A stretch of 64,000 nucleotides of DNA. Source: Winogradskyella vidalii. Its GTDB lineage: Bacteria > Bacteroidota > Bacteroidia > Flavobacteriales > Flavobacteriaceae. The stretch is taken from the NCBI RefSeq assembly GCF_013403955.1, contig NZ_JABFDG010000001.1:1054001-1118000 (forward strand), written 5' to 3'. Within the stretch, counting starts at the first letter, position 1; every line of letters starts with the position of its first letter. The notes beneath the pieces are model-generated. The model searched no databases. It was not told where the DNA came from and was given only the letters and a program-made list of their open reading frames with translations. Positions 20,314 to 23,097 of the stretch are shown here, piece by piece. The translations under genes and the position numbers were made by a program.

Positions 20314-21696
20314 ATGCTATTCACCTTCCTTAAATATTTGCAACCTACACATTATTTCCAATTAAGGAAACATAATGGTAATTCAACTTTTCCTAAAGTC
20401 GATTTGTTACCAGATGCTGTCTATTCTAAGTTAACTAAGGATTTAGATTATTCAAGCGCTTGGGCGAAGTCGTATGATTTGTCTTGGCAAGCTGTGCAAT
20501 GTGGTTATATTGGTCAATGTGAAACATACACTGAATTTAAGATAGTTCCCGTTATAGATAATTACAGGTTCGCACGAAAATATTTTAGTTCATTTTGGGT
20601 CTTCTATATTTTAATTGTTCGTCTTTTAAGTTTTTATAATCCTATAACAGAGGTTTTTGGCTGGTGGAAGACTCGTAAAGTTTCGCGTAGCAGCTATTTA
20701 GAAATCCCATTAGTATATTCAGAATATGATGCTTTTGAGTCCGAGTTGATAAAACAGAGCCCTTTAGTTAGTGTGATTATCCCAACTTTAAATCGCTATC
20801 CATATTTAAAGGATGTTTTACAAGATTTGGAGCAACAAGACTACACGCATTTTGAGGTTATTATTATTGATCAATCCACGCCATTTCAATCTGAGTTTTA
20901 TGCTGATTTTCAATTGGATCTACAAGTGGTGAATCAAAATGAAAAAGCCTTGTGGTTGGCACGTAATCGTGCTGTGAAAATGGCAAAAGGCGACTACATT
21001 TTATTGTTTGATGACGATAGTCGTGTTTCTAAAGATTGGATTTGTGAACATCTAAAAGCTTTAGATTATTTTAAAGCAGATTTATCTTCAGGAGTTTCTA
21101 TTTCTGAGCTAGGTGCGCCCACACCTGCGCATTATTCCTATTTTAAAATTAGTGATCAATTAGATACAGGGAATGTGTTATTAAAAAAGACTATTTTTAA
21201 AGCTATCGGTCTATTCGATCGACAATTTGAAAAACAACGAATGGGTGATGGTGAGTTTGGTTTACGCTCGTATTTAGCAGGCTACATAAATATTTCGCAT
21301 CCTTATGCCAAGCGTTTGCATTTAAAAGTGGGTAGTGGGGGGTTACGGGATATGGGAAGTTGGGATGCGTTTAGAACGAATTCGTTGTTTGAACCGCGTC
21401 CAATACCAAGTGTATTGTATTATTTTAGACGCTATTGGGGAAATTCAGCAGTGCGTTGGTCGTTGTTACGTACGGTGCCGTTATCTATTATGCCATATCG
21501 TTTTAAAGGATCAAAGTTGATGATGATAGTAGGAGCAGTGGTTTCTATATTTATTTTTCCTTTAGTGGTATTTCAGGTGTTTAAGTCTTGGAGATTGGCT
21601 GGTAAGAAATTGGATGAAGGGGCACTTATTGAAAAGTTAGAAGTGGGAAGTGAGAAGTTAGAAGTGGGAAGTGGGAAGTGGGAAGTGAGAAGTTAG
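20314..21696 (+). CDS. Family 2 glycosyltransferase with repeat-encoded tail
   Basis: GT2 enzyme of 460 residues with an unusual N-terminal extension of about 150 residues before the catalytic core (VSVIIPTLNRYPY). The metal-binding motif DDDS follows in LLFDDDSRV, and GDGEFGLR lies further on. A hydrophobic segment near 405-425 may anchor it. The last 20 codons (from about 21633) are encoded by a 7-bp tandem repeat, which reads as the heptapeptide series EKLEVGS, EKLEVGS, GKWEVRS before the stop. The native tail probably ended near KKLDEGALI. Repeat change would alter frame and length of the tail. Confidence 0.9.
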   Translation: MLFTFLKYLQPTHYFQLRKHNGNSTFPKVDLLPDAVYSKLTKDLDYSSAWAKSYDLSWQAVQCGYIGQCETYTEFKIVPVIDNYRFARKYFSSFWVFYILIVRLLSFYNPITEVFGWWKTRKVSRSSYLEIPLVYSEYDAFESELIKQSPLVSVIIPTLNRYPYLKDVLQDLEQQDYTHFEVIIIDQSTPFQSEFYADFQLDLQVVNQNEKALWLARNRAVKMAKGDYILLFDDDSRVSKDWICEHLKALDYFKADLSSGVSISELGAPTPAHYSYFKISDQLDTGNVLLKKTIFKAIGLFDRQFEKQRMGDGEFGLRSYLAGYINISHPYAKRLHLKVGSGGLRDMGSWDAFRTNSLFEPRPIPSVLYYFRRYWGNSAVRWSLLRTVPLSIMPYRFKGSKLMMIVGAVVSIFIFPLVVFQVFKSWRLAGKKLDEGALIEKLEVGSEKLEVGSGKWEVRS

Positions 21697-21779
21697 AAGT
21701 TAGAAGTTAGAAGTTAGAAGTTAGAAGTGGGAAGTGAAAAGTAAAAAGTAAAAAGTAAAAAGTGAAAAGTGAAAAGTGG
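21633..21779. repeat. 21 x 7-bp tandem repeat array
   Basis: Twenty-one contiguous 7-base units fill exactly 147 bases. Units are variants of GAAGTTA, GAAGTGG and GAAGTGA, drifting at the right end to AAAGTAA and AAAGTGA. Five identical GAAGTTA units lie at 21689-21723. The array begins within the coding region of the GT2 gene and runs 83 bases past its stop (21694-21696). It is the longest and least degenerate of the 7-bp-period arrays in the window. Confidence 0.95.
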
Positions 21780-21785
21780 GGTGAA

Positions 21786-21838
21786 TCCTTCTGGCTTTGA
21801 TTTCTTTAGGTGAAATCAAATCCGCCATCCTTTAATTT
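21786..21838. repeat. Dispersed hairpin-type repeat, copy B
   Basis: This stretch aligns with 9492-9545. It contains a perfect 8-bp inverted repeat, TTGATTTC at 21797-21804 and GAAATCAA at 21812-21819, with a 7-base loop. It follows the 7-bp tandem array directly. It may fold in RNA, but no T-run follows at once, so it is not a classical terminator. Confidence 0.5.
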
Positions 21839-21885
21839 CGACGGTTATTGGTTGGGAGGAGGAGCTTATTAAAAAAAAACATAAG

Positions 21886-21972
21886 GTCATTGAGAGGACG
21901 TAGGACGACGTAATCTGTATATTTTTTGCGGACGCTTTACGGAACTGCCTCGTCCTGCTTCCTCGCAGTGAC
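21886..21972. repeat. GC-richer imperfect inverted repeat element
   Basis: The left arm (21886-21917) begins GTCATTGAGAGGACG and the right arm (21945-21972), read on the other strand, begins GTCACTGCGAGGAAG. The arms match imperfectly over about 28 bases and flank a 27-base centre. The element is richer in G and C than its surroundings and ends 15 bases before the TTG start at 21988. It resembles the interspersed GTCATTGCGAGGA-type palindromic repeats of many bacterial genomes; that identification is from memory. Confidence 0.65.
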
Positions 21973-21987
21973 AAAATAGAAAATACA

Positions 21988-23097
21988 TTGAATAAAAAGA
22001 TTCTTATAGTTACCTCTGAATTCCCACCGCAACCTGGTGGTATTGGTGATCATGCTTATAATTTGGCTTTATATTTTAGTTTATCCGGATATAAGGTCAC
22101 TGTGATAGCGGATCAGCGTTCTGAAAACGGAATGGAAGAGTCTGATTTTGATAGCGCTTTACCATTTAAGGTTTTGCGAGTCGGCCTAAGTTCACCTCGA
22201 TTATCTATGTACTTAAAGCGTCTTCAACTTCTAAGACGTTGCTTAAAGTCTACGGATTTGGTATTGGCCTCAGGGAAATTTTCCTTATGGAGTGTTGGGT
22301 TTTTAGGGCACAACGGTCTTTTGCGCTTGGCGGTGGTACATGGATCTGAGGTTAATTTTAGTAAAGTCTTACTAAAAGCTAGTATTAACAAAGCCTTAGA
22401 TCGTTTTGATAAAATAATTGCCGTATCCCAATTTACAAAATCATTATTGCCCAATACTATTCAACAGAAAACGGTAGTAATACCCAATGGTTTTAATCCT
22501 GATAAGTGGGGTATTGAAGATGATAAAAAGGTGCAGCTTAAAGGTTCACCTAGATTAATTACAGTAGGTCAAGTTAGTGAGCGGAAAGGACAACATGAGG
22601 TCATCAAACTTTTGCCAAATTTAATACAACATTTTCCAAGCATTAGCTACCACTGTATAGGTATTCCTACAGATCAGGCCTCTTGTGAATTATTAGCAGA
22701 ATCTTTAGGGGTGGCATCTCATTTACATTTTTACGGTCGTCTAGGCCAGAGCGACTTACAAAACATGTTAAACGCTAGTGATGTTTTTGTAATGTTAAGC
22801 ACTACTACCGCTAGTGGTGATGTTGAAGGCTTTGGTATCGCTTTGTTAGAAGCTAACGCCTTAGGGGTCCCTACTATAGGAGCCAGTGGATGTGGGATTG
22901 AAGATGCCATTTTACCAGGAAAGTCAGGAGAATTGGTAAATTTAGAGGACGCTGAGGGCTTTGTAGAAACACTTAGTACTATTTTAAACCATCGAGAACA
23001 CTATAAATTGGGCTCAAAACAATGGGCTGCTGCACATCAATGGGATGTTGTTATAAAAAAATATCTGACTGAAATAGCAAATGTTATAAAGTTGTAA
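21988..23097 (+). CDS. Family 4 glycosyltransferase
   Basis: GT4-type enzyme of 369 residues, similar to the PimB/mannosyltransferase-like group by its start (SEFPPQPGGIGDHAYNLA, the acceptor loop). The linker is IPNGFNPDKW near 165, ITVGQVSERKGQHEVI follows, and EX7E is EGFGIALLE near residue 282, then ASGCGIEDAI. The TTG start at 21988 lies 15 bases after the inverted-repeat element and immediately precedes the first beta strand. Sugar specificity is not determined. Confidence 0.92.
   Translation: MNKKILIVTSEFPPQPGGIGDHAYNLALYFSLSGYKVTVIADQRSENGMEESDFDSALPFKVLRVGLSSPRLSMYLKRLQLLRRCLKSTDLVLASGKFSLWSVGFLGHNGLLRLAVVHGSEVNFSKVLLKASINKALDRFDKIIAVSQFTKSLLPNTIQQKTVVIPNGFNPDKWGIEDDKKVQLKGSPRLITVGQVSERKGQHEVIKLLPNLIQHFPSISYHCIGIPTDQASCELLAESLGVASHLHFYGRLGQSDLQNMLNASDVFVMLSTTTASGDVEGFGIALLEANALGVPTIGASGCGIEDAILPGKSGELVNLEDAEGFVETLSTILNHREHYKLGSKQWAAAHQWDVVIKKYLTEIANVIKL

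Follow-up and report, generated by a model that had tools for sequence, protein, structure and literature searches.

Heptad arrays at gene ends in Winogradskyella and their probable birth in place at stop codons

Background

Phase-variable contingency repeats are tandem repeats which touch a coding region and whose unit length is not a multiple of three. The window analyzed here, a stretch of 64,000 nucleotides from a 4.33-Mb genome of the genus Winogradskyella, contains an array of 7-base units which starts inside a gene for a GT2 glycosyltransferase and runs out beyond its stop codon. A sequence-only reading of this locus had offered two interpretations, namely a contingency tail that varies a polysaccharide enzyme, or a neutral microsatellite that has eaten into the gene end. 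The locus thereby raises the questions of what the gain or loss of units does to the protein, and of how an array of this kind comes to lie across a stop codon in the first place.

Results and discussion

Structure of the array

The GT2 gene (20314-21696, plus strand) encodes a protein of 460 residues with a match to PF00535 (E-value 3.3e-20), whose conserved part extends to about residue 443 (near position 21642). It is followed on the same strand by a gene for a GT4 glycosyltransferase (21988-23097), recognized from its open reading frame and its Pfam match. The array occupies 21633-21779 of the plus strand and consists of 21 units of the form [A/G]AAGTNN, with unit starts spaced every 7 nucleotides, in perfect register, from 21633 to 21773. 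TRF delimits it at 21630-21778 (period 7, 21.3 copies), and in 100 dinucleotide shuffles of the window the five-unit pattern had a chance expectation of 0; register count, TRF and shuffles thus all confirm the 21-unit, 7-base array that had been described. The units had been called exact, which holds for their period and fails for their sequence, there being seven types: GAAGTTA (6), GAAGTGG (5), GAAGTGA (3), AAAGTAA (3), AAAGTGA (2), AAAGTTA (1) and AAAGTGG (1). On its sense strand the array has 67 A, 52 G, 28 T and no C.

The five identical units reported earlier are indeed present as GAAGTTA at 21689-21723 of the plus strand, and this run is not found in the orthologous array of the Winogradskyella genome G124. 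The TAG stop (21694-21696) lies inside the array and takes the place of the native stop, and the array ends at 21779, i.e. 83 bases beyond it as had been stated; the tail translation given earlier is also correct, with KLEVGSEKLEVGSGKWEVRS at the end of the reading frame 20314-21696. No fold was predicted for the array RNA by a tool that does not model quadruplexes, and positions 21300-22300 gave no Rfam matches at gathering scores. From its five GGG tracts, which are unevenly spaced, the array might conceivably form a quadruplex. The spacer between the GT2 and GT4 genes additionally contains an imperfect inverted repeat (21886-21972), predicted as a hairpin in the fold of 21780-21987 (z -4.65). 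It is present as a single copy in its own genome, and hence is not a high-copy element here; like sequence occurs at the same place in G133 and G124 (L053, L054).

Invasion of the gene end and its consequences for the protein

We compared 81 GT2 homologues (80 kept of 183 found, and that of G124). In 71 of them the protein ends 13-15 residues past the position of residue 429, as against 31 residues past it in the window protein, and this near-constancy of the homologous ends supports the earlier suggestion that a microsatellite has eaten into the gene end. The number of units, which had been taken to vary, does differ among relatives, in this case between species, each represented by one genome: at five orthologous sites there are 21 units in the window, 10 in G124, 6 each in W. 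pacifica and W. thalassocola, and 0 in this register in W. sediminis, where a short TAGGGAT-like periodic stretch is found instead. The arrays of the window and G124 have in common their first two units, their last unit and their right flank, and are therefore probably of common origin and altered internally.

Across the 81 homologues, lag-7 periodicity (at least 21 of 28 matches) was detected in 17, the corresponding counts for lags of 5, 6, 8 and 9 being 0, 0, 1 and 0. The best periodic stretch starts within 45 nucleotides of the stop in 12 of these 17 and 56-240 nucleotides beyond it in the other 5. GT2 ends in other genera often carry heptads of other sequence, such as AGTTTNN in Mesonia mobilis, GTTGCAA in an Aequorivita and ACCGATA in a Xanthomarina, and within the genus the W. 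epiphytica GT2 end has the heptad AGATTGG. The end of a Xanthomarina homologue reads GAAAAGTTAGAATAA, with its own heptads of other sequence starting further on.

To simulate changes of array length, every unit was removed or duplicated in turn in silico, and block changes were made as well. Protein and tail were unaltered, at 460 residues, in 14 of the 21 single-unit losses (446 or 455 residues in the remainder) and in 13 of the 21 gains (448 or 467 residues in the remainder), the protein end never shifting by more than 14 residues. When blocks of up to 10 units were changed, the proteins had 441-474 residues. None of the simulated changes deletes residues 1-440 and none has an on/off effect; the switched expression or truncation that defines a contingency locus was thus not seen over this range of lengths. 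The claim that each unit gained or lost moves the protein end is therefore wrong for most of the array. Changes are mostly silent because a run of identical units is unaltered by one more or one fewer, and because units bearing a stop close each frame: GAAGTNN with NN = TA, GA, GT, AA, AT, TT, CT or AG places a stop triplet in every frame within 7 codons, whereas the remaining eight dinucleotides, GG and TG among them, give no such closure, and GAAGTGG and GAAGTTG contain no stop. The array acts mostly as a self-closing sequence, and not as a switch. Unlike phase-variable contingency repeats, it is situated at the 3' end of its gene, and unit changes do not turn the gene off. Frame closure as a general rule for heptads was considered and dropped, all frames being closed on the sense strand in 4 of 9 heptad arrays versus 2 of 9 on the antisense strand; we claim it only for units of the GAAGT class that contain a stop.

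The AlphaFold2 model of the GT2 protein (37-sequence alignment) has a mean pLDDT of 82.7 and a pTM of 0.84. Residues 445-460 have pLDDT values below 50, and further segments of low pLDDT occur at 307-311, 340-355 and 360-364. The array-coded tail (21643-21693, plus strand) is predicted to be disordered, and on this model looks dispensable. Taken together, the neutral half of the earlier reading fits better than the contingency tail.

The array belongs to a dispersed class

The same genome contains 8 GAAGT-class arrays of at least 5 units (one mismatch allowed), the 7-nucleotide tandem unit being dispersed across the genome as are the heptads described by Rehm et al., which are discussed below. 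Seven of the eight are in sense orientation at a gene end, the exception being C11:596941 (L034/L081). The ten proteins encoded before arrays in this and three related genomes include a tRNA nucleotidyltransferase, two TrpG-like amidotransferases, a release factor, UvrB, a HAD hydrolase, a DUF7935 protein and a polyketide cyclase-like protein, along with two that have no Pfam match. Of 68 genomes of the genus, 22 have GAAGTNN arrays of four units, as do 31 of 395 genomes sampled across the phylum; arrays of five units occur in 13 of 37 genomes of the genus and in none of 23 genomes that represent other families of the order.

Period 7 accounts for 8 of the 16 tandem arrays with periods of 4-12 in 2.0 Mb of Winogradskyella sequence (400 kb from each of five genomes), and for 19 of 20 in the 80 named GT2 loci (0.5 Mb). 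Period-7 arrays look denser in the GT2 loci (19 in 0.5 Mb) than in the evenly spaced Winogradskyella stretches (8 in 2.0 Mb), though the species differ between these two samples. Only 3 of 108 arrays, that of the window included, have at least four GGG tracts, and because of this the class is not filed by us within the quadruplex family. In some of the GT2-GT4 spacers (L278, L228, L297) the heptads on the stop side are G-rich and those immediately ahead of the next start are C-rich, which looks like two arrays of opposite strand bias in one gap. Elsewhere in the phylum, genome G355 matches the reversed pattern TGAAGNN 31 times (17 forward, 14 reverse) and GAAGTNN not once, and another heptad class may have expanded there. 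In G130 (L354, L357) several different heptad arrays lie within single convergent gaps.

Placement beside stop codons and the strand rule

In the genus the arrays lie on the sense strand and adjacent to stops. The placement set comprised 91 arrays in 69 clusters, of which 46 arrays in 25 clusters were from the genus; genes were taken as open frames of at least 80 residues, with start positions that are rough. After deduplication, 21 of the 25 genus clusters are in sense orientation at the 3' end of a gene (0.36 under a null of random position and strand in the same gap; p ~1e-6) and 15 of 25 start within 15 nucleotides of the stop (null 0.16; p ~1e-6). The 45 arrays from across the phylum are more mixed: 18 are sense at a 3' end, 10 are antisense upstream of a gene, 10 are inside long reading frames, 4 are antisense at a 3' end, and 3 are placed otherwise. 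Stop anchoring had first been tested on 11 gaps, where it did not reach significance, with 4 arrays near stops versus 2.3 expected and 4 near starts versus 1.9 expected.

Polarity was examined in 108 period-7 arrays, kept after 58 duplicates, 18 arrays with more than 70% coding content and 15 at locus edges were dropped; the window array, whose composition changes midway, counts as two of the 108. The 5' end of the G-richer strand is closer to the edge of a reading frame than its 3' end in 93 of 108 arrays, and in 52 of 59 clusters (p 1.4e-9; 3 of 62 clusters were tied and left out), compared with 0.54 for array-free intergenic windows. The median distances of the two ends from that edge are 3 nucleotides (5') and 145 nucleotides (3'). 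The rule holds for 42 of 45 clusters of the GAAGT class and for 15 of 19 clusters of other heptads (p 0.02). By source, it is seen in 66 of 74 arrays from loci fetched mainly for their arrays, 13 of 16 from GT2 loci, 7 of 7 from trpG loci and 7 of 11 from evenly spaced stretches. In the non-GAAGT arrays the sense strand is the G-richer one in 21 cases and the C-richer one in 2 near stops, versus 2 and 7, respectively, near starts (Fisher p 3e-4, relatedness not corrected). In a literature search that covered few subscription journals we found no earlier report of this strand rule or of GAAGTNN arrays in Bacteroidota.

Neutral tolerance by itself, with slippage acting anywhere in non-coding DNA and arrays lying beside stops only since gaps are short and the spot is harmless, offers the most serious alternative account of this placement. 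The match to the next gene starts within 15 nucleotides of the stop in 28 of the 81 GT2 homologues, and the 17 loci with lag-7 periodicity all lie outside these 28, so that packed operons would offer an array hardly any other place to start. The small effect of unit changes on the GT2 protein also agrees with this proposal. It does not, however, predict a strand, let alone the opposite preferences near stops (21 vs 2) and starts (2 vs 7), and the placement in the genus exceeds a null drawn from the very same gaps. We therefore regard tolerance as a sole cause as unlikely.

Evidence from trpG for birth in place

The clearest indication of how the arrays begin comes from the 3' end of trpG, for which 30 loci were examined out of 62 genomes with a trpG match. 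Arrays were found in 9 of the 30, each of which begins either at the stop itself or within the last codons, and the other 21 have no array. The units often match the gene's own end: in the genome of the window the gene ends AAG AGT TAG and is followed by (AAGTTAG)n, and in G194 it ends AGC AGT TAG and is followed by (CAGTTAG)n. GAAGTGA is present at this site in 1 copy in G192, 2 in G184, 11 in G183, 11 in G151, 14 in G133 and 20 in G124, in a comparison that is unrooted. The right flank that follows GAAGTGA in G192 and G184 is the one that follows the 11 copies in G183, and the same flank is found with one difference in G151. At trpG, both the match of the units to the end of the gene itself and the right flank common to the low-copy sites speak against arrival of the repeats as an inserted block that is unrelated to its target. 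Heptads that match the gene's own end, stop included, in 2 to 20 copies point to birth in place.

Beyond trpG, a stop recurs exactly 7 nucleotides after the real stop in 9 of 27 stop-edge clusters (0.10 in 1377 genes), and over 42 arrays the last 7 nucleotides of the gene agree with the following 7 at 4.07 of 7 positions (versus 2.29), both values being inflated by stop-overlapping arrays in the sample. From these sequence comparisons, seeding at the stop appears clear at trpG and partial elsewhere.

The recurrence of arrays at the same gene ends in several species, trpG included, along with their sense-strand bias, might also be expected of a functional 3' UTR element maintained by selection as a binding site in RNA or DNA. 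Such an element is quite improbable given that the unit sequence varies at a single site (AAGTTAG, CAGTTAG and GAAGTGA at trpG), that 21 of 30 trpG loci do without an array, that no RNA fold is predicted and that the adjoining genes have no common function. Slightly less probable still is a contingency locus in which unit gain or loss would vary the glycosyltransferase C-terminus and hence the surface polysaccharide, for although the array overlaps a gene of a polysaccharide-type cluster, tail lengths differ among five Winogradskyella orthologues (31, 19, 17, 24 and 15) and heptad periodicity recurs at the GT2 end (17 of 81), most changes are silent (14 of 21 losses, 13 of 21 gains) with no on/off change, the tail is predicted to be disordered, sister arrays adjoin housekeeping genes, and in one isolate of a relative, Flavobacterium psychrophilum, described in the portion of PMC4501049 available to us, eight loci were unchanged over 12 passages.

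A proposed origin of the arrays

We consider it probable that slipped copying creates the dispersed 7-base arrays in place at gene edges, mostly at the stop codon, and that they subsequently change in length internally. Slipped copying at the gene edge would be the motor, and the GT2 array was probably seeded by the last codons of its own gene, GAA AAG TTA GAA (E-K-L-E), as the end of the Xanthomarina homologue suggests. The growing array has replaced the native stop, and it is the first in-frame stop within the array that now terminates the protein. This invasion may have been tolerated because many units contain a stop triplet in sense orientation and 7 is coprime with 3, so that a run of such units closes all three frames within 7 codons. 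The outcome would be a short disordered tail with no known role.

Two candidate explanations may be offered for the strand rule. Firstly, a C-poor, unstructured transcript past the stop might avoid recruiting Rho, whose RNA-binding domain is encoded in the genome, and therefore leave the downstream genes of the operon unsilenced. Secondly, RNA:DNA hybrids might arise at the point of ribosome departure from the message, where growth of the array would then be favoured by a G-rich non-template strand. Neither easily accommodates the start-side arrays, in which G is on the other strand. Counting against birth at gene edges, most of the polarity set comes from loci that had been fetched for their arrays, and the evenly spaced stretches alone give 7 of 11; moreover, sense placement at a 3' end is seen in no more than 18 of 45 arrays across the phylum, and 5 of 17 GT2 periodic stretches start 56-240 nucleotides past the stop. 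A bolder extension, which we think possible though rather doubtful, is that bacterial heptad arrays, of any sequence and in any phylum, grow outward from the edge of a gene through a directional mechanism coupled to transcription or to the release of ribosomes, with the last seven bases of the edge as the first template.

Relationship to previously described heptads

Rehm et al. 2015 (PMC4692102), in the sections of that paper available to us, describe the quadruplex-forming heptads GGGAATC and GGGGA(C/T)T in Xanthomonas and Nostoc, which show the same placement as the arrays here, overlap of the stop included. Those sections frame the repeats in terms of quadruplexes, doubt a role in phase variation, report no function and leave the role unresolved. 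As set out there, these heptads are reminiscent of our arrays in being 7-nucleotide units that are dispersed, mostly intergenic, variable in length at one site and adjacent to genes of unrelated functions. Unlike them, the arrays described here have another unit, occur in another phylum and include at least four GGG tracts in only 3 of 108 cases (one being the window array); no preference for four units is seen among them, and their units often match the end of the host gene, all as judged against that same part of the paper.

Heptads are also found in the VNTR loci of F. psychrophilum (PMC4501049), a member of the same family, where 8 of the 12 loci in Table 3 have 7-nucleotide units (e.g. 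AAAGTTT and ATTTTAG) and are mostly intergenic. According to the part of that study available to us, these heptad loci differ between isolates and are used as typing markers, with no discussion of their strand or of their position relative to stops. MacGregor 2015 (PMC4679880) describes, in the part available, TAACTGA repeats from Beggiatoaceae, Cyanobacteria and some Bacteroidetes; in earlier work cited there, heptads are the commonest long simple repeats in most repeat-rich genomes. On the evidence of that part, the TAACTGA repeats resemble our arrays in being heptads, long in Gramella and Aequorivita, with relatives that are free of arrays, and differ from them in their unit and in lying mostly just upstream of start codons. 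The window array, by comparison, has GAAGTNN and AAAGTNN units, overlaps a stop and ends 208 nucleotides before the next start.

Conclusions

Heptad arrays, their variation and their stop-side placement are each already known separately. The present analysis extends this placement to heptads of Bacteroidota that are mostly non-quadruplex, and adds the evidence from trpG for birth in place. A placement common to heptads that are mostly unable to form quadruplexes points to a more general cause, and the trpG site, where sister species have between 1 and 20 copies, provides a comparative system for the birth of a microsatellite at a stop codon. The GT2 gene in turn illustrates how the invasion of a gene end can be harmless, in that every frame is closed by a unit which bears a stop and whose length cannot be divided by three. 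Outward growth from gene edges, if true, would bring the AT-rich heptads of Bacteroidota and the quadruplex heptads of Xanthomonas and Nostoc together, with stop codons as the places where microsatellites are born. The placement described here bears on why long simple repeats in bacteria favour a 7-base unit, and on where in the genome they are located.
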